64,000 bases of DNA from an uncultured Massilimicrobiota sp. (GTDB lineage Bacteria > Bacillota_I > Bacilli_A > Erysipelotrichales > Coprobacillaceae), in contig CALUZM010000001.1 in the NCBI GenBank assembly GCA_944325245.1, positions 1 through 64,000 on the forward strand, given 5' to 3'. Positions 49,677 through 61,260 of the stretch are shown here, in pieces (positions within the stretch are counted from its first letter, which is position 1; each line of letters starts with the position of its first letter). Both the position numbers and the translations under genes were made by a program. The notes beneath the pieces were generated by a model. That model ran no database searches. It was not told the DNA's origin and saw nothing but the letters and a program-made list of their open reading frames with translations.

Positions 49677-50513
49677 TTAAACAATACCAATAACTCCTAA
49701 CACAATGGCAATCACAAGATAAACACCAATCAATTTAATAGCACTAAACTTTTTAAATTTTAGTAAATAGAATCCTAATAAAACAAGACACATTGGAATA
49801 AACTTTGGAAAAATACCATCTAAGACCTCTTGAAAATTAATAGTGCTATATTCACTTACATATTCAGCAGTAATTGTAAAATTTACATAACTTGCTGTAA
49901 TAGCTCCCACTACAGTTAACCCAAGAACTGACATAGCATCTTGAATTCTAGCCATTTGTTTACCTAATAATTTATTAACTGCTTCACGTCCTGATTTATA
50001 TCCTGACATAAAAGTTATTCTTGAAATTAACATATTAATTCCATATAGTACAGCAACTGCAAATATAGCTCCTAGTACACTTCCATTTGTAGATAAACCA
50101 ATAGCAACGCTTAACACAATTGGTGGAATAGTTGCTTGAGTAATTGCATCACCAATTCCAGCTAAAGGGCCCATAAGTCCGACTTTAATATTTTGAATAA
50201 AATCATCACTAATTTTAGCCCCATTAGCTTTTTCAACTTCCATTGATGCAACAATTCCATTGACAACTGCCCCAACAATATTATTTGTATTATAAAAAAC
50301 TGAATGTCGTTTTAAAGCAGCTACCATTTTTTCTGGTTTATTTTTATAAAATTTCTTAAAAATAGGTAACATGGATAAGGTAAAACCAGGTGCTTGTAAT
50401 CTTTCATACCCAAATACAGTAAGAGCATATTTCCACCATGTCCACCATACTTTATTAACTTCCTTTTTTGTTAATTGCGTTGATTCATTAATAATTTCTT
50501 TTTTTTCACTCAT
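49677..50513 (-). CDS. PTS mannose/fructose/sorbose-family IID component
   Basis: 278-residue membrane subunit of a mannose-family phosphotransferase permease. LTKKEVNKVWWTWW, YERLQAPGFTLSMLPIFKKFY, ALKRHSVFYNTNN, and GLMGPLAGIGDAI are IID signatures. It begins within the stop codon of IIC (ATGA overlap, 50510-50513), with GAGGATGAG before it. Together with IIC it forms the sugar channel. The sugar class (mannose, fructose, sorbose, glucosamine and others) cannot be told from these subunits. Confidence 0.93.
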   Translation of the reverse strand: MSEKKEIINESTQLTKKEVNKVWWTWWKYALTVFGYERLQAPGFTLSMLPIFKKFYKNKPEKMVAALKRHSVFYNTNNIVGAVVNGIVASMEVEKANGAKISDDFIQNIKVGLMGPLAGIGDAITQATIPPIVLSVAIGLSTNGSVLGAIFAVAVLYGINMLISRITFMSGYKSGREAVNKLLGKQMARIQDAMSVLGLTVVGAITASYVNFTITAEYVSEYSTINFQEVLDGIFPKFIPMCLVLLGFYLLKFKKFSAIKLIGVYLVIAIVLGVIGIV

Positions 50514-51313
50514 AATAACTCATCCTCCTCATCATCTTGTATTTCTAAATTATTTTCATTCTTATGATCAGTAAACATATAATACATAACAGCTAAACAT
50601 GCCCCAAACACTGCTGTGGCAACCATATTAAATTGTAAAAATGTAATACACATCATTCCAATAAGGAAGAATATAACAAATTTGTAATCCTTTAATGTAT
50701 AAGTTACTAAAATAGAAATTCCTACTGCTGGTAAAACACCACCTAAGACACTTGCTATATGTAAAACAAGTTCGGGTATTGCAGCCAATAATGAAGAAGC
50801 ATAATTACTACCTAATAAAACAATAGCGAAAGTTATTCCAAATCGTATAACAAAACTTGTTATAGGTGGTAAAACCATATATGCAACCTTCATTCCTTTA
50901 ATATTATTTTGAGCAATGAATTTATCACCTAATTGATAAAATACAGATGCTAAAATTTCATAACCTGTAAATAAGGCTGCTCCCAAAACTCCCACTGTCG
51001 CTGCTAATGTTACTGCTACATTTGCATCTGCACCCGCTAACATTGCCAGTGCTATTGAAGGATATGATACAAAGGCCATATCAGCTGTTGCAACACCACC
51101 GATAAGAACCTGCCCTAAATACATAGCTTGTACAGCTGCTCCAATTGTTGCTCCAGTTACAACATCTCCTAAAATAATGCCTACAATTGTTCCCCCGACA
51201 ATTGGCTTCGACATAGCATCAGAAAAAGCGACTCCTAATGGTTGAGAATTCTCAACACTTCCTAACCAACATGCTACACCTATTAAAAAGGCTTGAAAAA
51301 TACTTACATCCAT
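50510..51313 (-). CDS. PTS mannose/fructose/sorbose-family IIC component
   Basis: 267-residue membrane subunit with about eight helices. It begins MDVSIFQAFLIGVACWLGSV and has QPLGVAFSDAMSKPIVGGTIVGIILGDVVTG-type sequence (for example VGIILGDVVTGATIGA) and IGGVATADMAFVSYPSIALA, typical of the IIC subunit. Its end is translationally coupled to IID through ATGA, which also shows that TGA is read as stop in this genome. Confidence 0.93.
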   Translation of the reverse strand: MDVSIFQAFLIGVACWLGSVENSQPLGVAFSDAMSKPIVGGTIVGIILGDVVTGATIGAAVQAMYLGQVLIGGVATADMAFVSYPSIALAMLAGADANVAVTLAATVGVLGAALFTGYEILASVFYQLGDKFIAQNNIKGMKVAYMVLPPITSFVIRFGITFAIVLLGSNYASSLLAAIPELVLHIASVLGGVLPAVGISILVTYTLKDYKFVIFFLIGMMCITFLQFNMVATAVFGACLAVMYYMFTDHKNENNLEIQDDEEDELL

Positions 51314-51317
51314 AATT

Positions 51318-51806
51318 TTAACCTCCCTTATAATTTGATTGGACTTCTTTAAAAGTTAAACCTTTTTCATCTGGTATCAATTTAAATTGAATATCAATAC
51401 CTTGTGCATTCAAATATTCACAATATTTCATATCATTTGGTGATAAATAAACATTATTATAAACTTTCTCAGTTCCTTCTGCTTTACTTGCTGTTCCAAA
51501 TATAATTTCTTTACCAAAATCTACCCCTTTCTTTTTAAGCAGATAAAGTTGTTCAATTTTCTTTGAAATTAAATAATATTTTTTCTTTCCAGATATGGCT
51601 TTAGGTACTTTTTCTATAGCTTGTTCAACTGTGAAAATATATACTTTTTTACCTAATCCATTTCCTGCATTTATGAAAACTTCTTTTAAAAATGGATCCT
51701 TAGCCAATTCATCATCAACTAATAAAATAATAGCATCACCTTGTCTGACCTTCGTCCACATCAATAAAACTTGTCCATGTATCAAACGGTCGTCCACTCT
51801 TACCAA
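51318..51806 (-). CDS. PTS mannose/fructose/sorbose-family IIB component, disrupted start
   Basis: IIB subunit that takes phosphate from IIA and passes it to the sugar; the phosphorylated His is in VRVDDRLIHGQV near the N-terminus. The rest (162 aa) is normal: VDDELAKDPFLKEVFINA, GKKVYIFTVEQAI, EIIFGTASKAEGTEKVYNNVYLS. The start is odd. The ATG with a good ribosome-binding site (51816-51818; GGAGAGG five bases before it) is followed by TCT and then TGA in the correct frame. The first possible start after it is TTG at 51806, 17 bases from the Shine-Dalgarno sequence. Translation may reinitiate there, otherwise the IIB subunit would be missing. Confidence 0.85.
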   Translation of the reverse strand: MVRVDDRLIHGQVLLMWTKVRQGDAIILLVDDELAKDPFLKEVFINAGNGLGKKVYIFTVEQAIEKVPKAISGKKKYYLISKKIEQLYLLKKKGVDFGKEIIFGTASKAEGTEKVYNNVYLSPNDMKYCEYLNAQGIDIQFKLIPDEKGLTFKEVQSNYKGG

Positions 51807-51851
51807 ACTTCAAGACATAAATTCCTCTCCTTCCTTGTTATGTTATCGTGT

Positions 51852-51903
51852 TGTCATGACATCTTTACATTAATATAATAGCATTACTTTTATAAAAATG
51901 CAA
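51852..51903 (-). promoter_or_regulatory. Internal promoter before PTS IIB with palindrome
   Basis: Minus strand: TTGCAT (51898-51903), 17-bp spacer, TATTAT (51875-51880), then the perfect palindrome TGTCATGACA at 51852-51861 in the leader. It lies in the ~100-base gap between IIA and IIB and could allow separate control. Confidence 0.45.
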
Positions 51904-51907
51904 TGCT

Positions 51908-52300
51908 CTATAAACTACAAATAGAAATTTTTCCTGTGTCCATAATTTGGTTAATTAATTGTTGCGTTTCCATATCTAAATCACATAACATCCCTAGCTC
52001 TATAACCATTGCCAGATTCATTCCTGTTACAAGATATATATTTGAATCCTTATGAGCCAGAATATATCTATAACACTCGTTATATGGAGTGGCATTTGGA
52101 ATATCCGTTACAATAATAATTTCTTTATATTCTTTTTCTAATGTTTCCATTCTTTCAGTTAGTTCTACTCTAAAATTATCAACTCCTTCTTCTGTTAGCG
52201 AACATGTATAAATATTTTCTTTTTTACCTATAATCATCTCACAACTTTCTTTGACACCTTCACACATTGTAGAATGTGTAACTAATAAAATAGCTTTCAT
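51908..52300 (-). CDS. PTS mannose/fructose-family IIA component
   Basis: About 130 residues. The active-site His is in ILLVTHSTMCEG at position 9, the phosphorylation site of mannose-family IIA proteins. IIIVTDIPNATPYNECYRY and LVTGMNLAMVIELG are the usual later motifs. I take the ATG at 52300, with GAGGTGG five bases upstream; the frame opens three codons earlier with GTG. It precedes IIB by about 100 bases. Confidence 0.88.
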   Translation of the reverse strand: MKAILLVTHSTMCEGVKESCEMIIGKKENIYTCSLTEEGVDNFRVELTERMETLEKEYKEIIIVTDIPNATPYNECYRYILAHKDSNIYLVTGMNLAMVIELGMLCDLDMETQQLINQIMDTGKISICSL

Positions 52301-52316
52301 TATTTCCACCTCATCT

Positions 52317-53156
52317 TTAAAAATTCGCTGTATCTGGATAAGATCCTATTTTTCCATGAGTATGACTAAGATTTCTTATTCTTTCAGTATCTTCTTTTGC
52401 TAATTGAAAATCAAAAACTTCTAAATTACTTTTAATTCTTTCATTTGTTACTGATTTAGGTATAGGAATGATTTCATTATCTATGGCGTATCGAATACAA
52501 ATTTGAGCAGGTGTCTTTCTATATTTCTCGGCTATCTTCTGTATAATTGGATCATTCAATACTTGACTTCTTCCCAATGGACTATATGCTTCTAAAACAA
52601 TATTATTTTGACGACAATATGATATTGTTTCTTCATCATAATAATAAGGATGGAACTCTATTTGATTCACCATAATAGGAATCTCTATCTCCTGACTGAG
52701 TTCTTCTAAATGATGTTTCACAAAGTTACTTACTCCAATCGCTTTAATTTTACCTTCTTTATAAAGATATTCCATTGCTTGATAAACTTCAATATTTCTT
52801 TTTTGATAATTATCTCTATAGTCTTTTGGCGCAGGCCAATGAATTAAGTATAAATCAATGTATTCAAGCTGTAATTTATTTAAACTTTCATAAAATGCAT
52901 CAATAGCTTCTTGATAATGACTTACTGTATTCCATAATTTTGTTGTAACAAAAAGCTCATCTCTTGATATATGACTTTGCTTAATTGCTTCACCAATTGC
53001 ACATTCATTCCCATAGCTACTTGCAGTATCAATATGTCTATACCCATAGGAAATAGCTGCTTTCACCGACTCAACAGCAGTATCATAATCATCAATTTTC
53101 CAGGTTCCAAAACCAATACAAGGTATATTCACACCATTATTTAATTGTAAATCCAT
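52317..53156 (-). CDS. Aldo/keto reductase (AKR5-like)
   Basis: 279-residue NADPH-dependent aldo/keto reductase. GFGTWKIDDY, YRHIDTASSYGNE (catalytic Asp and Tyr), VTTKLWNT (Lys), YLIHWPAP (His) and IPIPKSVTNERIKSNLEVFDF (cofactor binding) are all in place. It is the first gene of the nine-gene PTS operon, 16 bases before IIA. In this setting it probably reduces or oxidises a sugar, for example an aldose to an alditol, but the substrate is not shown. Confidence 0.9.
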   Translation of the reverse strand: MDLQLNNGVNIPCIGFGTWKIDDYDTAVESVKAAISYGYRHIDTASSYGNECAIGEAIKQSHISRDELFVTTKLWNTVSHYQEAIDAFYESLNKLQLEYIDLYLIHWPAPKDYRDNYQKRNIEVYQAMEYLYKEGKIKAIGVSNFVKHHLEELSQEIEIPIMVNQIEFHPYYYDEETISYCRQNNIVLEAYSPLGRSQVLNDPIIQKIAEKYRKTPAQICIRYAIDNEIIPIPKSVTNERIKSNLEVFDFQLAKEDTERIRNLSHTHGKIGSYPDTANF

Positions 53157-53174
53157 TATTTCCCTCCTTTATTG

Positions 53175-53224
53175 TAATGATATCATGTCATCATTATATT
53201 AACTCTTGTGTATTTTTTTGTCAA
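53175..53224 (-). promoter_or_regulatory. Promoter and operator of the sugar PTS operon
   Basis: Minus strand: TTGACA (53219-53224), 17-bp spacer, TAATAT (53196-53201). Directly downstream is an inverted repeat TAATGAT-N8-ATCATTA (53175-53196), containing the palindrome ATGATATCAT. A repressor bound here would cover the transcription start. Confidence 0.6.
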
Positions 53225-53381
53225 TATGAAGTGATAAATTATCTAAAATGTTTATCAACAATATTTTTTAACATACAAACTATGAATAAGATTTCATTCT
53301 AAAATTAATAGAAAAATAACTTTAATTGTATCAATATATTTTTCATATCATATACTATATATAGAAATATTCTTATCCGCA

Positions 53382-53410
53382 TTGACCTTACTTTTCATTT
53401 GTAGTATATT
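53382..53410 (+). promoter_or_regulatory. Promoter of the type III antitoxin RNA
   Basis: TTGACC (53382-53387), 17-bp spacer, TATATT (53405-53410). Transcription is expected to start near 53417, just before the repeat array. Confidence 0.65.
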
Positions 53411-53450
53411 ATAAATGAAGAATATTTCAAAAAAAGGATAGAAGTTTGTT

Positions 53451-53559
53451 AAATGGTGCTTCACAGCCGTTAAATGTGGGTTGAAACATTCAGTGCTCCA
53501 CAGCTGAAAATGTGGGTTGAAACATTCAGTGCTCCACAGCTGAAAATGTGGGTTGAAAC
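53451..53559 (+). repeat. Three tandem ~36-nt repeats of the antitoxin RNA
   Basis: Copies at 53451-53487, 53488-53523 and 53524-53559. Copies 2 and 3 are identical; copy 1 shares GTGCTNCACAGC and AAATGTGGGTTGAAAC. No spacers separate them. Confidence 0.95.
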
Positions 53560-53573
53560 TTTTAACAGACTAC

Positions 53574-53585
53574 CTATCCTTTTTT
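53574..53585 (+). terminator. Terminator between antitoxin RNA and toxin gene
   Basis: CTATCCTTTTTT pairs with AAAAAAGGATAG at 53430-53441 on the other side of the repeat array, extended by GTTTGTTAAA / TTTAACAGAC. In ToxIN-type loci a leaky terminator in this place sets the ratio of antitoxin to toxin mRNA. Here no local hairpin exists, only the long-range partner. Confidence 0.6.
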
Positions 53586-53604
53586 ATTTAATCAGGAGGA
53601 TGCT

Positions 53605-54138
53605 ATGAGCAAATTAAATATTTATTACATAAACAATAACTATATCAATTATTTGCAAGAAGAAGAACGAAAAGCAAGGGGTTTTACTAAAGTTTCAAAC
53701 AACACAGATATGAACTATGAAAATTTCAAACCTTATGTAGGTATTGTTTTACAAATTGAAAAATACAATTACTTTGTTCCACTAACACATCCAAAACAAC
53801 ATTACGATGATAATGCTCAATTTTTTAATAGAATTTCTCATCCTATTGAATTAACAAATGGAAGAAAATATGGTCGACTAATGTTTTGCTATATGATTCC
53901 TATAAAAGATAGTAATTTGATTCATTTGATTAATATTAACAATATAGAAGATAACAATTATAAAAATGTACTTATGTCACAATATTTCTATCTAAAATCA
54001 TCTGAAAAGGAAGAAATCATCATAAATTCAGCAATCAAATTATATAATAAAGTCAAAGGAAATCCTCATCATTTTCTTTATTCTAAATGTTGTGATTTTG
54101 AACTACTTGAAAAAGCTTGTAATCTTTATCCATTATAA
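53605..54138 (+). CDS. ToxN/AbiQ-like endoribonuclease toxin (type III TA)
   Basis: 177 residues, similar in layout to ToxN and AbiQ, endoribonuclease toxins that also cut their own repeat antitoxin RNA. It begins KLNIYYINNNYINYLQEEE, like the ToxN start, and continues KPYVGIVLQIEKYNYFVPLTHPKQHY; the PLTHPK stretch (Lys64) corresponds to the conserved L-T/S-S-P-K of the active site. RLMFCYMIPIKDSNL matches the NLKYMIPI segment of the family. The C-terminal half is helical, as expected. AGGAGG stands before the ATG and the gene follows the antitoxin RNA directly. Type III systems abort phage infection or stabilise DNA. Family call by pattern memory, strongly supported by the repeat array. Confidence 0.85.
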   Translation: MSKLNIYYINNNYINYLQEEERKARGFTKVSNNTDMNYENFKPYVGIVLQIEKYNYFVPLTHPKQHYDDNAQFFNRISHPIELTNGRKYGRLMFCYMIPIKDSNLIHLININNIEDNNYKNVLMSQYFYLKSSEKEEIIINSAIKLYNKVKGNPHHFLYSKCCDFELLEKACNLYPL

Positions 54139-54325
54139 CAATTATATATTCTCATTTTTATTTAATATACTCATTATTAAACATTGAAACAGAGGCCTTT
54201 ATAATATTATGCTTCTGTTTTATTTTATTATGTGTATACATATAATAATTTAGTAATATATCAACAGATGTTTTCAATATTTTTTAATATATTCTTTTCA
54301 TAATAATAAGCTTAAATATAAAGAA

Positions 54326-54352
54326 AGCTATTGATAAAAATTATCAATAGCT
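54326..54352. terminator. Terminator of the GH16-GH29 operon
   Basis: Perfect stem AGCTATTGATAA / TTATCAATAGCT with a 3-base loop, downstream of the GH29 gene on the minus strand and also downstream of the toxin gene. Confidence 0.75.
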
Positions 54353-54368
54353 AATCTTCAAAATAGTA

Positions 54369-57300
54369 TTAATCTTGAGAATCAGATTTTTTATTTTTCA
54401 TAACTACAAATAAACATGCAGCTCCTAATAAAGCTATTACAAATACTCCTATAACTTGTTCATCACTAGTTTTCACTTTATCATGAGATGAAGTTGTCCC
54501 ATTTACTGTTGGTGTAGTAGAAGGTTTTTCTCCAGTTTGTCCTGAATTTCCTTGATTTGGATTATCTTGACCTGGTTTTTCAGGTGTATCTGTACCTGGA
54601 TTCATTTCATCACTCTTACCTTTAACAGTAACTGTAAATTGAGTTTCAAATTCACCATAATGTACAGTTAAAGTTTGTTCACCAACTTTTGATGAATCAA
54701 ATCCTGTTACTTCTACTTTATGAGTAATATCAGTCGTTGCACCTGTATCATATTTTGCTATAACTTTTAATCCTGTTAAATCAAGCGTATCTCCAAGTGC
54801 ATAAACCGTCTTACTTGGCATTTGTTCAATTGCGATACTTTCAATCTTTCCATTTGATACTTCTTGTAATTTAATTTTTGCATTATCAATAGCTAAATCA
54901 CCATCTGATTTTGCTAAAGATTTAGCAGTAATAACAACTTGAGAAATACCAGTTTCTTGAATATTCAATGGTATTGATTTTTCTATTAATGTTTCTGAAG
55001 CATCTAAAGAAATTGTTTGTTTAACAATATGATCTCCACTAATGATAAGTGACATAGGTTGAGTTGCCTGATATGTGAAATCAAAATTATATAAACCTGC
55101 TTTTTGGACATTTAATGGTACAGTAATTGTATTTCCATCTTTAATCTTATTAATCAAACGACCATTACTATAATCATTTCCATTAACCATCTTTAAGTAT
55201 TCATTAGCAACAATATTTTCATGTTTTGAATCTAAAATACCTAATTCTGCTTCTAAAACTTTTTCATCTTCAAGATTATCTGGTAAGATCATAGCATTTC
55301 TTACAGAATATTGACTAATAGCTTCAAGATTATTGTAAGCTTCCATTAAAGCATTAGATAATTTCATTTTTTCATCATCACTCATAGAATTGTCATCTAC
55401 TGCTGCTTTAGCTTTTATATAAGCTTGATCAAAGGCATCCCAGCTTTCAGCTTTATACCATGATTCACTAATATTTGAAGTTTGTTCTACAGCATCAGCT
55501 ATTCTCTTATCATTTTCAACAATAAGAACTCTGGCTGTACTTCTCATACCAAGTTGTGCTCCACCTGTTGGTGAGAAAATTTCTACATAAAAATCTTTAT
55601 TTCCAGTCACATCCAAATTATCAATAGTTTTTAAAGTTACATATTTTACTTTTTCTCCATCTTTGAATGTGATTGTTTCATTTGTAATATTTTCATAATA
55701 TTGCCCTTGTACTGCTGTACCTGGAGGTGTTGTAACATTAACAGTAACTTCTCCTGTTGATCCCCCGTTACGTTTAATCTTAACTTTGATAGAGTCTCCT
55801 TCAGTGACTTGATATGAATCTGTTTCAATTTCAAATAAACCATTTTCATTTGTACCTAAATAGTAACCATATGCAAAGTTTACAGGTTTTCTATTTGTAC
55901 CTGTTGTTAATTGAATTGTATGTGTTCCTGCACCTAAAGTTGGAGATTCATACAATATTTGACCTGGTGTTATTTCTCCAGCTGAAGCATTAGCTGAACT
56001 TGTATATTTTCCATCAATATAAATATCAAATGAACCATAGTCAGGTCCTTTTGTACCTACTAATGCAAAGTATGTTCCTTCAAATGTATACTTAATATTT
56101 GCCCAACCATCAGTTGTTGTATAACTTCCATCTTCTTGTTTTTCCCAACCTGTATTTCCTTGATGGTCATCATCCCAAGAACCTTTATTTAATTCCAATC
56201 CTTCATCACCTGGAACAAATTTTGTATATGCTTCTGGTAAAGGTTGAGTTTTTTCAAAACCATCAGCTGTTTTATAAATACCAACTTCACTGATCATTGG
56301 TTCAGCATAAGAATCAGAAATATGAATTCTAATAGCTTTTGCTTGAACTGGATCAATTCTTAATAATTTTTTAGCTCCAATAGTATGACCATCTTCAAAA
56401 GGTAACCATTGTCCATCTGCAGTTTGATATTCTACTTCAAACTCACTAATTCTTTGTCCCTTTTCAATATATTCTTCAATTGATACAACATCAAATTCTT
56501 TCACTTCATCAAATTCAATTTCTAAAGTTCCCGTTTTTTCACCTTTTTCTGTTGTCCAATAAGTATTTTCATCACCATCAATTGCTTTAGCTGGTGAATA
56601 CTCTTTTGCATTTTCATAAACAGATGAAGCTCCTGCTTTAGAATTTTGTGCTAATAAATTTGTTTTAAATGTATTATCAATTGCATTTTTAAATTCATTT
56701 AAACGAGAATAAATACTTCCATCTAAATCCCCTGTTTGATTTGGTGGAAAGTTCAATAATAATGGTGACCCATTACCTACTGTTTGGAAATAAATATTTC
56801 CTAATTGACTTATAGATTTTGGTAAATCTCCATCGTGATAGAACCAACCAGAAGTAATACTGACATCACTTTCTGGAACTGACCAATGGTCACCATCTGG
56901 AATACCATAAGTGAATCCATCAGCTTCACTATATCCGTCACCTTTTTCAGAATCTACCTTAGCCCAAGTTGTATCACTTGCTTGACCTTTTTCATTTCCA
57001 ATCCAGTGAATTCCACCTTCTGTTCCACCACCAAAAATAAGAATACCTGGTTCATTATCTTTGATAGTTTTTAAAATACGTTTTGTATCATATTCTTGAG
57101 CATCGCCACCTTCTCCTTTGGCACCATCCATCCACCATTCTGTGAATTTTCCATGATTACCATATTTAGGATTAGTAACAATTTCTTCAATTTGATTTAC
57201 ATAATAATCATTATAATCTAAAACATCTTTTTCTTTGACTTCTTCCATTGTCATACCATCAACAGGATTTCCATTTTCATCTAACAATGGATTTCCATCT

Positions 57301-57845
57301 TTATCATAATATCCATAACTTTCAGCATTTTCGTCCCATGGAGATAAGTATAATCCCATATCCATATCATATTCAGTACAAGCTGCTGAAATTTCTGCTA
57401 AAATATCTCCCTTACCATCTTTATATGGTGAATTTTCAATATCATGTTCTGTATATTCACTTGGCCAAATACAGAAACCATCATGATGCTTTGCAGTGAC
57501 AATAACTTTTTTAAATCCTGCATTTTTCAATGCTTCAACCATTGATTTTGCACTTTCTCCAAAATCTCCTGTAGGATTGAATACAGATGGAGATTCTGTT
57601 CCATCTCCCCATTCATTACCCGTAAATGTATTTACACCAAAATGTATGAATGCAGCTAATTCATCATCGTGATATTGAAGCTGTGCTTCATTTGGTAAAG
57701 CTCCCCAGCTTTCTGGTTCAGTAACTGTTTTATCTTCTAAATCAGTGTCATAGACTAAGGCATTTGAAGAGTAAACAGCTGAACCAACAATTGTCATTGC
57801 AAGTGTACCTGCTAAGGTACCTTTTAAAATCTTACTTTTATTCAT
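54369..57845 (-). CDS. Surface multi-domain GH29 alpha-L-fucosidase
   Basis: 1158 residues with signal peptide (1-29). Domains in order: GH29 catalytic domain (about 40-385; AAFIHFGVNTFTG, TAKHHDGFCIWPS, and the nucleophile Asp in WWMDGAKGEG), F5/8-type carbohydrate-binding module (395-535), a second beta module (560-665), Calx-beta (668-780), FIVAR helices (785-840), a beta module (855-1010), a bacterial Ig-like domain (1015-1090), a Pro/Thr linker and a C-terminal VKTSDEQVIG plus hydrophobic span plus KNKKS. GH29 enzymes release alpha-L-fucose from host glycans such as mucin. The end resembles a sortase signal without LPxTG. It starts 20 bases after the GH16 gene. Confidence 0.9.
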   Translation of the reverse strand: MNKSKILKGTLAGTLAMTIVGSAVYSSNALVYDTDLEDKTVTEPESWGALPNEAQLQYHDDELAAFIHFGVNTFTGNEWGDGTESPSVFNPTGDFGESAKSMVEALKNAGFKKVIVTAKHHDGFCIWPSEYTEHDIENSPYKDGKGDILAEISAACTEYDMDMGLYLSPWDENAESYGYYDKDGNPLLDENGNPVDGMTMEEVKEKDVLDYNDYYVNQIEEIVTNPKYGNHGKFTEWWMDGAKGEGGDAQEYDTKRILKTIKDNEPGILIFGGGTEGGIHWIGNEKGQASDTTWAKVDSEKGDGYSEADGFTYGIPDGDHWSVPESDVSITSGWFYHDGDLPKSISQLGNIYFQTVGNGSPLLLNFPPNQTGDLDGSIYSRLNEFKNAIDNTFKTNLLAQNSKAGASSVYENAKEYSPAKAIDGDENTYWTTEKGEKTGTLEIEFDEVKEFDVVSIEEYIEKGQRISEFEVEYQTADGQWLPFEDGHTIGAKKLLRIDPVQAKAIRIHISDSYAEPMISEVGIYKTADGFEKTQPLPEAYTKFVPGDEGLELNKGSWDDDHQGNTGWEKQEDGSYTTTDGWANIKYTFEGTYFALVGTKGPDYGSFDIYIDGKYTSSANASAGEITPGQILYESPTLGAGTHTIQLTTGTNRKPVNFAYGYYLGTNENGLFEIETDSYQVTEGDSIKVKIKRNGGSTGEVTVNVTTPPGTAVQGQYYENITNETITFKDGEKVKYVTLKTIDNLDVTGNKDFYVEIFSPTGGAQLGMRSTARVLIVENDKRIADAVEQTSNISESWYKAESWDAFDQAYIKAKAAVDDNSMSDDEKMKLSNALMEAYNNLEAISQYSVRNAMILPDNLEDEKVLEAELGILDSKHENIVANEYLKMVNGNDYSNGRLINKIKDGNTITVPLNVQKAGLYNFDFTYQATQPMSLIISGDHIVKQTISLDASETLIEKSIPLNIQETGISQVVITAKSLAKSDGDLAIDNAKIKLQEVSNGKIESIAIEQMPSKTVYALGDTLDLTGLKVIAKYDTGATTDITHKVEVTGFDSSKVGEQTLTVHYGEFETQFTVTVKGKSDEMNPGTDTPEKPGQDNPNQGNSGQTGEKPSTTPTVNGTTSSHDKVKTSDEQVIGVFVIALLGAACLFVVMKNKKSDSQD

Positions 57846-57865
57846 AGTTGTTCCCTTCTCTTTCC

Positions 57866-60127
57866 TTATTTAACATGTAATGTTGCACACGCTCTTGTAT
57901 ATACGTTATTTTCACCAATAGTAGAATAAACAATTTCATATGTTCCTTCTTTTGAGAAATCAATTTCACTTGTTCTTGTTCTACCATTCCACATTAATTT
58001 TTGCCCATCATTGATTGAACAGCTTACATCTAATGCTTTACCATTAGCATCAGTTGCCTTAACATTATCCAATAATGATGATAATTGTGATTCATCACTA
58101 ATTGTTATGTCTTTTACACCACTAAAAGTTGGTGCTGTCGCATAATATTTGTCAGCAGCTTCTTTTTGAGCAGCTGTCTGGCTATAACTTACATAATCAA
58201 TAATGAAATCCATAGGGAAATCTGTATCTTCGTTAGGGAAACCAGGCCATGCTCCTCCTGCAGCCAAGTTAAATAATAAGTAATGAGGTTTTTGGAAATA
58301 ATCTAAATCTGTAATATAAATTGTGCTATAAACATTACCATCGACATACCATTCAATTGTATCAGGATTCCATACAATACCAAATGTATGATAATCATCA
58401 TTAAAAGTTCCTTCTTTTAATGAATAAGTATTTGTTTGAGCCTTATCACCATTTTCTGTCAATCCATTATGAATTGTTCCATGTACTGTACTATCACTTG
58501 TACCAGAAACATCTGGATTAGCTCCAATTAATTCCATAATATCAATTTCACCACACATTGGCCATCCAACACCTTGTTTAGAATCAACCAATCCATCTAA
58601 CGTGAAATCATTACCTAAAGTCCAGAACGCAGGGAATGCCCCAGCGCCTTTTGGTAATTTAGCTCTCATTTCAATTTTTCCATATAAGAACTCTTTCTTA
58701 CCAAATGTTGCAATACTTCCTGAGTCATATTTCTTAACAATATCACTACCATCTGCATTGTAGTGCACACGATATTCACCTTTTTTTGTTGCACGTAAAT
58801 ATAATTTCCCATCTTCAACAAAAACATTATCTTTATTAGAAACATAATCTTGAGGTTCAATACCACGTTTATGTCCTAATTGATATGACCAAGTGCTTTT
58901 ATCTAAAGTGTCGAAATCATCACGCCATACTTCAGTATATTGACTTGCTTGTTCTTCTTGTTCTTCTTCTTTTTCTTCTTCTTGAACCTTATCATATACT
59001 GATTTTTCATAAACACGCATATCACTAACATTTACTGTAGCATGATATGATGCCTGTTCTGCTTCATTTCCATTATCAGGACCATATTTATAAACATTTA
59101 ATATAACTTTATCATAATTACCTGAATTAAATGCAATTTCAACATCACTCCAAGAAGTACCACCAGGGTATTGCTCTCCTAATCGAGTTGTTGATGCATT
59201 CTCATCATTATTTGGCCCCTCTACTGAAACTGTTGTTCCTGCTTGTGCAGAACTATGTTTGACACGTACTTTAAAAATATATTCAGTATTTGGTTTAACT
59301 TGCGCAGCAGTTCTTACCCAAACATCTCCATTTTCAGCAGGCAATACAAATCCATTGGCGTTTTCACCATAACCTTCCCCAATTGTTACTGGATTATCTG
59401 CTGGAGCATTTGAATAAAAATCTCCTGAGTTCCATCCCAATGGCCAACCATCATTTCCTTTAATACTATCTTGTGTGATACCAATTAAATCACTATTCTT
59501 AATTAAGTTTTCTAATTTTGTTTTTGATTCTTCTTTTTCTTCATACTTTGTATACTCTGCTTTTTTCATTAATACAGCTTCATCAAAATACATAGTTGAA
59601 TTAAAGATTGAATCTTCATTCTCAGTATACTTTAAAACTCCAATTGTGATTTTATCGTGATCACCTGAATTAAATTCAATTTTTGCTTTGGTCCAGTCAG
59701 TTCCTCCAATGTATTGATCTTCAATACCTTCAATTTTTCCTCCTTTTTCATCAGCAACTTGAACAATAGCTTGTGCACCAGATAATGATGTTCTCACATA
59801 AGTACTAAATACATAATCCGTATTCTTTTCTACCTCAATGACTTGTCTAATCCAGACATTACCATTTTTAGCAGGTAGAATTGCAGAGCGTTCGCTTTCA
59901 TTGTAGCCAATGAAACTGACCCCCCCTCCGCTGTTTGAATACCATGTTCCAACATTCATATTGGATGCATCTTCAGGTTTTCCAATGTCAGCAGATTTGA
60001 TTTCTTCAAAATCACCATTGGAAATGAGATTGCTAGCAGCATTGACATTCCAGTTTTGTGGAATCATTGTTCCCAACATAGCAAATGTCATTGCTCCAGC
60101 GACAAAAACTTTCTTTTTGGTCTTCAT
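57866..60127 (-). CDS. Secreted GH16 endo-glycanase with two carbohydrate-binding domains
   Basis: 753 residues. After a signal peptide (1-31) come two CenC-like carbohydrate-binding domains (about 34-195 and 205-375; SNLISNGDFEE and NTDYVFSTYVRTS, NTEYIFKVRVKHS), an acidic EEEQEE linker, the GH16 domain (about 395-665) with the catalytic EIDIMELIGAN (ExDxxE) near residue 525, and an Ig-like C-terminal domain. GH16 enzymes act on beta-1,3/1,4-glucans, and some act on mucin or galactans. There is no anchor, so it should be released. First gene of a two-gene operon with GH29. Confidence 0.9.
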   Translation of the reverse strand: MKTKKKVFVAGAMTFAMLGTMIPQNWNVNAASNLISNGDFEEIKSADIGKPEDASNMNVGTWYSNSGGGVSFIGYNESERSAILPAKNGNVWIRQVIEVEKNTDYVFSTYVRTSLSGAQAIVQVADEKGGKIEGIEDQYIGGTDWTKAKIEFNSGDHDKITIGVLKYTENEDSIFNSTMYFDEAVLMKKAEYTKYEEKEESKTKLENLIKNSDLIGITQDSIKGNDGWPLGWNSGDFYSNAPADNPVTIGEGYGENANGFVLPAENGDVWVRTAAQVKPNTEYIFKVRVKHSSAQAGTTVSVEGPNNDENASTTRLGEQYPGGTSWSDVEIAFNSGNYDKVILNVYKYGPDNGNEAEQASYHATVNVSDMRVYEKSVYDKVQEEEKEEEQEEQASQYTEVWRDDFDTLDKSTWSYQLGHKRGIEPQDYVSNKDNVFVEDGKLYLRATKKGEYRVHYNADGSDIVKKYDSGSIATFGKKEFLYGKIEMRAKLPKGAGAFPAFWTLGNDFTLDGLVDSKQGVGWPMCGEIDIMELIGANPDVSGTSDSTVHGTIHNGLTENGDKAQTNTYSLKEGTFNDDYHTFGIVWNPDTIEWYVDGNVYSTIYITDLDYFQKPHYLLFNLAAGGAWPGFPNEDTDFPMDFIIDYVSYSQTAAQKEAADKYYATAPTFSGVKDITISDESQLSSLLDNVKATDANGKALDVSCSINDGQKLMWNGRTRTSEIDFSKEGTYEIVYSTIGENNVYTRACATLHVK

Positions 60128-60309
60128 ACCTTTCTCCTTTCCTGTTTAGTAAAAATATAAAGTTTTTTTATTTCTTTTTACTAAACTTTTTACTATGGCT
60201 AGTATATACTTATAGATTTATTTTTGCAAGCGATTTCATCATTTTTTGTTTTATTTTTTATTATCCTTAATATAAGTCCCTTATAAAATTCACAGAGCAA
60301 ATAAAAAAA

Positions 60310-60328
60310 GAGATAGTTTTCCTATCTC
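60310..60328 (-). terminator. Terminator of the YabE-like gene
   Basis: GAGATAG / CTATCTC stem with loop TTTTC, followed by T7 on the minus strand. The TAG stop codon of the gene is inside the stem. Confidence 0.8.
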
Positions 60329-61260
60329 CAAAAATTCGCATTTCCACTACCAAGAGAAACAACTTCAAATTTGGTATTATGTGAGGTGCCACCACCAAAA
60401 TATCTTTTCCCAGAACCTTCACTACCATTAAAAATATCTATTTTATTTCCCTTAATAGCACCACCACGATCTACAACAATTCCATAAATAGTCCCTGCTG
60501 TATTTAAATTATGATTAGAAATCTTAATCACAGTTCCAAATGGAATAGATCGATCAGCAGCCAAACAATAATATTTCTTTCCTTTATAATATAAGTAAGG
60601 TGAGTTGGTATTATTGACTCCACTCGTTGGGGATAATTTCACACCAGATGAAGATGTTCCTCCACATCCTGTACAATCTCCACCATATATTGTCAATCTA
60701 CCTGTAAAAGTTGTACCTTTTAAAACACCACCATATTGAATAATCTTATCTACTGGCTTTTCAATAATTTCTTCTTTAATCATTTGACGATCAGTTTCTT
60801 TTCCATTAGCATAAGTCAACAGATAAGTTCTTTTAGCTTTTCCATCTTTTCCTTTTTGAACAACTGTTTTTGTCCAGCTTCCACTACCTTTGGTTTTTGT
60901 TGAGTATGGTATTGTTTCTATTTTTTCTATTGTTTTCGTTTCAACTCTTGTAATTTTAATCAAATCATCCTGTTGAACAATAGCATCTTTATCTTTATTT
61001 AAAGTATCCTTCTGATCTAACTCAACATTTAATTCATTTAAGACATTTGATACTGTATCCTGCTTGACCAAATAATCTTTTTCCTCCTGTAAACCATCTT
61101 TTAAACGAATATCTACAGTTGGAATAAAATCTGTAATCTGATTAACAGCTCCTGATGATACAGTTGCTAACATAATAACAACATATACCACAGCCATCGC
61201 TAAAATTCCTTTTGTTCGGCTATCAGCCGAGACAATTGCCTCTTTAGCTTTTTGTAACAT
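60322..61260 (-). CDS. YabE/RpfB-like cell-wall protein (DUF348, G5, 3D domains)
   Basis: 312 residues. A signal/anchor helix (about 18-38) is followed by a DUF348 ubiquitin-like domain (VDIRLKDGLQEEKDYLVKQDTVSNVL), a G5 domain (about 100-175; TIEKIETIPYSTK) and a C-terminal 3D domain (about 215-312; AADRSIPFGTVIKI, GTIYGIVVDRGGAIKGNKIDIF with the three conserved aspartates). Such proteins are related to resuscitation-promoting factors and lytic transglycosylases and act on peptidoglycan. It directly follows tatD, just as yabE follows yabD in Bacillus subtilis, and the two form an operon. Confidence 0.88.
   Translation of the reverse strand: MLQKAKEAIVSADSRTKGILAMAVVYVVIMLATVSSGAVNQITDFIPTVDIRLKDGLQEEKDYLVKQDTVSNVLNELNVELDQKDTLNKDKDAIVQQDDLIKITRVETKTIEKIETIPYSTKTKGSGSWTKTVVQKGKDGKAKRTYLLTYANGKETDRQMIKEEIIEKPVDKIIQYGGVLKGTTFTGRLTIYGGDCTGCGGTSSSGVKLSPTSGVNNTNSPYLYYKGKKYYCLAADRSIPFGTVIKISNHNLNTAGTIYGIVVDRGGAIKGNKIDIFNGSEGSGKRYFGGGTSHNTKFEVVSLGSGNANFWR

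Follow-up and report, generated by a model that had tools for sequence, protein, structure and literature searches.

How does a type III toxin–antitoxin locus keep its antitoxin in excess of its toxin when the local terminator, the accepted device for this in type III systems, is missing from its usual place? The question is raised by positions 53382-54138 of a 64,000-nt stretch (the window) from an uncultured Massilimicrobiota sp., a gut bacterium, and it touches a wider matter, as antitoxin excess and the sensing of its loss in type III systems are not fully settled. We consider it probable, at roughly 0.85, that 53382-54138 is a chromosomal type III locus of the ToxIN family whose repeat array is closed by a stem of 23 base pairs. 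A ToxIN locus as such is ordinary; a stem that encloses the array and stands in the terminator's place is uncommon. The elements of the locus are as follows.

53382-53410, plus strand: promoter-like site TTGACC-17-TATATT, called from the sequence pattern; 53321-53432 is 82% identical to the same-genus genome G004
53416-53429, plus strand: UGAA-GAAUAU-UUCA, a short hairpin close to where the transcript is predicted to begin, at the 5' end
53430-53453, plus strand: left arm of the closing stem (12 + 11 pairs)
53450-53487, plus strand: pseudoknot unit 1, S1 53454-53456/53467-53469, S2 53460-53465/53475-53480; a degenerate copy with both stems kept
53488-53523, plus strand: pseudoknot unit 2, S1 53491-53493/53504-53506, S2 53497-53502/53511-53516; 3' end GAAAC
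53524-53559, plus strand: pseudoknot unit 3, equal to unit 2 in sequence; 3' end GAAAC
53561-53585, plus strand: right arm of the closing stem with a T-run at its end, a candidate split intrinsic terminator without a local hairpin
53594-53599, plus strand: ribosome-binding site AGGAGG, predicted mostly free with the closing stem and paired with the right arm once the array is cut off
53605-54138, plus strand: toxN-like endoribonuclease gene, 177 aa; K42, T61 and K64 aligned with ToxN K33, T52 and K55, H62 in place of S53 and H66 in place of W57

A ToxN-like protein behind three pseudoknot units

The 177-aa protein named in the original prediction is confirmed as an ORF preceded by AGGAGG, and it falls well inside the Pfam family ToxN_toxin (PF13958; E 2.2e-34, 119.4 bits against a cut-off of 25), residues 4-175 aligning to profile positions 1-159. 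It also matches the PADLOC AbiQ model (E 1.9e-32) and PHROG 9764, a family of no known function (1.7e-24); an NCBIfam scan gave no match. With phmmer, the protein retrieved four solved sequences, all of them ToxN or AbiQ (4ato, 2xd0, 7d8o and 4glk; E 9e-15 to 9e-10). A structure model for which the window protein was combined with nine relatives from viral contigs (pLDDT 78, with two low-confidence segments) matched the same four structures in Foldseek (4ato 1.2e-7, 4glk 1.2e-6, 2xd0 2.5e-5, 7d8o 3e-5), whereas a sequence search extended to E 1 brought up no CptN, and the CptN structure 4rmo reached only E 0.37 in Foldseek. Sequence, fold and locus order thus all bear out the predicted ToxIN/AbiQ-like identity, including by the structural comparison that had been proposed for it. 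Of the family segments read from the protein at the outset, PLTHPK and CYMIPI are present, and the one described as IGIVLxI-like reads VGIVLQI.

Most catalytic residues are supported as well. ToxN Lys33, Thr52 and Lys55 correspond to K42, T61 and K64 in the phmmer alignment (numbered by hand), and the same alignment sets H62 against Ser53 and H66 against Trp57. In E. coli ToxN, K33A, T52V, K55A and W57F each abolish toxicity, and S53 has no mutant in that study (PMC8860590). The histidine at the Trp57 position therefore counts against an active toxin. Ser53 and Trp57 are not kept family-wide and so were not used as defining ToxIN residues; alignments read by eye place a histidine at the Ser53 position in L080, L123, L159 and L178 too, all with open frames.

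The original prediction had further allowed that the locus may define a new subfamily. The protein is indeed divergent, sharing 28-41% identity with 18 aligned relatives and 24-27% with the ToxN structures 4ato, 2xd0 and 7d8o in structural alignments, but it lies far above the PF13958 cut-off and its placement differs by tree method: FastTree puts it inside a group with 32 sequences that include toxins with an RGFT motif (support 0.84), whereas IQ-TREE joins it to L114 and L116 instead (bootstrap 47). The RGFT motif itself, in an N-terminal insertion, is common to several toxins and the window toxin. Judged by its sequence, the window locus is a divergent ToxIN member and no new family.

Upstream of the toxin stand two identical 36-nt repeats and a partial third, which in pseudoknot register give three units of 38 (as delimited here), 36 and 36 nt, the first four bases of unit 1 overlapping the left arm of the closing stem; the three tandem repeats of about 36 nt predicted at first hold in this form, with the first of them degenerate. 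ToxI tandem repeats usually measure about 34-37 nt. Relative to units 2 and 3, unit 1 shows a two-sided change in one stem pair (A-U to G-C), wobble changes in two (C-G to U-G) and no broken pair, and all 18 of 18 stem cells are paired in register, compared with 28-41% when the partner is slid. Because the comparison rests on two distinct repeat sequences and 245 of 500 shuffles match the pairing of the units, these stem-preserving changes support, and do not prove, an H-type pseudoknot fold for each repeat. No ToxI match to the array was found in Rfam, whose matches near it all fell below the gathering score; this negative is uninformative, because the plasmid locus L128, annotated as ToxN, has no match either, and nothing relevant appeared for the eight loci tried. 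Two repeat-like matches elsewhere were discarded: the single one in viral contigs falls within an open frame on a phage-like contig and is put down to chance, as is, by eye, one in an AT-rich ORF of G003:C76.

In protein family and fold, catalytic Lys/Thr/Lys, H-type pseudoknot repeats and promoter–repeats–toxin order, the window locus agrees with ToxIN of Bacillus thuringiensis (4ato), Pectobacterium (2xd0) and E. coli (7d8o). It departs from them in the two histidines, in an array-enclosing stem where these relatives have a local terminator hairpin, and in repeat boundaries that read GAAAC, compared with the ToxN cut motifs AAAU, GAAAU and AAAAA given in the part of PMC8860590 consulted. AbiQ of Lactococcus (4glk) has the family and fold of the window toxin (28% identity by Foldseek), but its sequence is far from it (phmmer E 9e-10), and AbiQ is anti-phage whereas the window locus is known from sequence alone. 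AbiQ has about three repeats, like the window array. The closest homologues in viral collections are ToxN of the Clostridioides phage pCD1602_4 and its IMG/VR copies (L127, L113, L114; 37-41% identity), whose loci, unlike the window locus, combine double repeats of 73 nt with a local terminator hairpin. CptIN is type III like the window locus, with a distant similarity in fold and with 45-nt repeats according to the consulted part of PMC4627078.

Other repeat arrangements were seen upstream of ToxN genes. A 58-nt period, which exceeds the usual ToxI unit length, occurs in 16 of 55 arrays of a named set (L145, L148, L151, L156, L168, L171, L174, L175 and others). The ToxN-family loci L008, L009 and L018 carry one pseudoknot-like unit, TACGGCTCCTACCGCCATAAGTGTAGGGCG, and L030 a single unit like it with one base changed; no tandem array was found at any of the four.

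A stem that encloses the array

Promoter-like sites are not in excess over shuffles (9 found against a shuffle mean of 13.7), so the promoter call rests on position and on the DNA identity to G004, on which basis the predicted promoter is retained, at TTGACC-17-TATATT. The layout was originally said to follow exactly the order known for type III systems. Promoter, repeats and toxin do follow it, but the usual local terminator hairpin is absent and a stem enclosing the array is found instead. Likewise, of the predicted terminator-like sequence there is the T-run at 53580-53585, before which comes the right arm of a long-range stem that has its left arm upstream of the repeats, and no local hairpin with a T-run between array and toxin; the sole terminator-like site in a scan of 53100-54400 is on the minus strand at 54326-54352.

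The two arms, 53430-53453 and 53561-53585, form 12 + 11 = 23 pairs and are separated by 107 nt that hold the pseudoknot cores of all three units, and the stem ends exactly at the T-run, in the usual place of the terminator between array and toxin. As the stem does not overlap the pseudoknot stems, it and the pseudoknots can coexist. The whole-leader fold has a z of -3.18. We infer that the closing stem acts as a split intrinsic terminator that keeps antitoxin above toxin, with the pseudoknots in its loop; intrinsic terminators do not usually have a loop as long as 107 nt.

Local hairpins at other ToxN loci were surveyed twice. From 87 locus entries, 17 were excluded (10 for a broken ORF, 3 for N letters, 1 for short length and 3 as duplicates), leaving 70, among them the near-identical L113, L114 and L127. 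By a loose definition (local hairpin plus T-run, no energy cut), 68 of the 70 have a terminator-like hairpin between array and toxin; the two without are the window locus and L080, the latter so counted because its match starts inside the ORF, although its sequence does show GCGGG...CCCGC followed by T. When an energy cut is added and the search is confined to the last 75 nt, a hairpin remains at 53 of 64 loci, against 75 of 1,280 shuffles. Widening the stretch to 120-200 nt or correcting the start brings one back at nine of the 11 misses; for the window locus this extended search adds nothing but a hairpin that lies within its own unit 3, and for L016, a locus lacking an array, it adds nothing. 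The second survey took in 80 named loci, of which 4 were skipped and 10 dropped as duplicates, and found a local terminator hairpin at 59 of the remaining 66. On reading the seven misses, L183 and L184 prove to have a hairpin outside the searched stretch and L152, L174 and L179 one whose T-run is poor, while at L211 and L213 no array was found.

By analogy with known ToxIN systems, one promoter would give an RNA with three H-type pseudoknots, which the ToxN-like RNase would cut at the GAAAC boundaries; the freed pseudoknots would bind the RNase and hold it inactive, and if the antitoxin supply failed the RNase would attack cellular or phage RNA. The closing stem and T-run would terminate transcription and so leave antitoxin in excess of toxin. 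It is on such analogy that we infer processing, toxicity, neutralisation and phage defence.

The strongest competitor, which we regard as unlikely though well worth keeping in mind, is that this is an ordinary ToxIN locus in which the enclosing inverted repeat is accidental and little or no terminator separates antitoxin from toxin. The stem is known from one genome, no close relative having been found in which to see conservation, and 3 of 3,145 window tiles pair as strongly. A candidate homologous stem in G004 was rejected, since this similar-looking hairpin marks the end of a repetitive element (its ORF reads as IS110-like), which is matched at 12 more places in G001 and G002 (91-95%). Against an accident, the arm duplex energy of -25.5 kcal/mol is equalled by only 1 of 5,000 double shuffles, and the stem is the top leader/3'-flank complementarity of 101 flank pairs scored (27; next 23.5) while ending at a T-run in the terminator's place.

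A different role for the right arm seems improbable: paired with the left arm it would terminate transcription and leave AGGAGG free in read-through RNA, and after ToxN cuts the array it would pair with AGGAGG and stop toxN translation, such that free toxin would limit its own synthesis. The mean unpaired probability of AGGAGG falls from 0.76 in the intact leader to 0.07 in the cut fragment, the largest gap of 74 loci (next 0.29), in fold models that ignore pseudoknots. However, 109 of 500 shuffled right flanks sequester AGGAGG equally well, for which reason we rate this switch as speculative; close relatives in which to compare it were not found. That the locus has decayed or is non-functional is very improbable: unit 1 is degenerate and Ser53 and Trp57 are both replaced by histidine, but the ORF is intact with a good ribosome site, the changes in unit 1 preserve every stem pair, and the histidine at the Ser53 position recurs in the four open-frame loci named above.

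Separately, the 5' leaders of L063, L071 and L073 are complementary to part of their terminator regions (8-11 pairs), an antiterminator-like arrangement that may be chance.

Closure pairing in a clade of other ToxN loci

Base-paired array ends, as in the window locus, also occur in a clade from uncultured Clostridia and Erysipelotrichaceae (L034, L144, L163, L178, L215 and others), most members of which carry an RGFT-like N-terminal insertion, as does the window toxin. In this inner RGFT clade (IQ-TREE; a few members, such as L178, vary the motif), the loop of a leader hairpin complements sequence just after the array. The hairpins (GAUG...CAUC, AACG...CGUU or AGUG...CACU) lie near the expected transcript start with the loop GAUUACU or a variant, and the complement lies right behind the array, ahead of the local terminator. 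The clade closure pairs a short stretch over a long range as a pseudoknot, with a local terminator behind it, whereas the window closure is a long nested stem, and the clade-type loop/flank element is absent from the window locus. Kinship of the window toxin to the clade depends on the tree, with support of 0.84 for the 32-member group in FastTree against a position elsewhere, with bootstrap 47, in IQ-TREE.

Covarying loop/3'-flank pairing was found at L012, L034, L144, L146, L159, L162, L163, L178, L202, L215, L218, L232, L238 and L245. In a swap test on nine clade loci, each leader with its own flank scored 17.28, compared with 15.12 for swapped flanks, and 3 of 2,000 permutations were as high, whereas 89 loci outside the clade gave no signal (1,674 of 2,000 permutations as high); the window locus, L159 and L215 were omitted from both sets, the latter two because their arrays were misplaced. 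Among hand-cut pieces (8 distinct types, 13 loci), 6 of 10 pairs show two-sided change and none one-sided change, with 98.8% of cells paired; adding L245 and L237 as rows gives 7 of 10 and 98.0%. These pair counts are inflated, because the pieces were picked by pairing; the swap test is independent of the pieces. Three of four testable loci fetched after the closure idea was set down conform to it (L232, L238, L245); L245 adds a further two-sided change, and L237 retains only five pairs. Applied to 17 upstream regions, a rule-based search recovered a closure of 6-8 nt at its expected position in 13, missing L232 and L025, where it fails because the promoter was misplaced, as well as L237 and L184; closure pairing was not found in L184. 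The left side of L208/L230 is masked, and L243 is truncated.

By eye, closure was not seen at the outer RGFT toxins L153, L193, L200, L210 and L216. A general rule, a 6-nt leader-loop/3'-flank complement, fits 29 of 114 loci against a permuted mean of 24.6 and does not separate them; since neither this rule nor the swap test outside the clade gives a signal, closure is not a general ToxIN feature. A further search found no closure-clade members in viral contigs. Within the clade, the covarying closure is a more solid new element than the window stem, and it offers a concrete RNA element open to mutation.

We raise, with little confidence, the idea that some ToxI precursors are rings closed by base pairing, through the covarying loop-to-3'-flank pseudoknot in the clade and the 23-pair terminator stem here, whose state would report free toxin, as ToxN cutting opens the ring, and feed back on toxN termination or translation. 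A precursor with tied ends is a testable alternative in which array integrity would be coupled to toxN expression.

Among the titles and opening abstracts searched, mostly of open-access papers, none dealt with closure of ToxI precursor ends. Structured RNA candidates from Clostridiales and Leptotrichia that lie upstream of ToxN are described in PMC8040213, and one of them could overlap the clade closure element. At L143, L172, L173, L186 and L059, read by eye, the GAUUAC/GUAAUC words of that element form a local 5' hairpin instead.

Spread, insertion site and neighbours

PF13958 occurs in 20 of the 43 genomes of the window's family; the window's own genome is among the 20 and has one match. 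With the window protein as query, 32 of 315 genomes of the order matched (its own included), as did 32 of 395 genomes sampled from the class and 22 of 392 sampled from the phylum, both samples overlapping the order. The best full-length relative is 38% identical, and across order, class and phylum no relative exceeds this over most of the toxin length, two short stretches reaching 40%. Single-protein patterns likewise gave no close toxin relatives in genome and viral contigs.

The same-genus genome G003 is 99% identical over window positions 54297-54800 and has no PF13958 match, as expected of a module that is gained and lost; on this sequence comparison, the ToxIN module appears as a presence/absence trait at this site. 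The promoter region is shared with G003 (77%) and G004 (82%). Upstream of it lies a deoC-like gene in G003 and G004, by reading, and an aldo/keto reductase in the window. Two stretches carry the ToxIN promoter region without the module: in L095 (G004:C195) it is followed by the repeated IS110-like element, and in L097 (G003:C41) it is joined to CCTTTTTTT, an empty site or a deletion scar. The six neighbours scanned (50510-61260) are sorbose-family PTS IIC and IIB, the aldo/keto reductase, a fucosidase-like protein, a GH16 protein and a G5/3D-domain protein, and no phage or defence families were found among them.

Elsewhere in the collection, L014 (579 aa) fuses a ToxN domain (ToxN_toxin E 2.5e-20) to a long C-terminal part with matches, each short of the family's cut-off, to HipA_C (E 3.6e-5) and HipA_2 (E 0.0019); it is possibly an RNase–kinase double toxin with its own repeats. 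The Pfam scan covered L014; by eye, L015 and L017 resemble it, and L013 is shorter.
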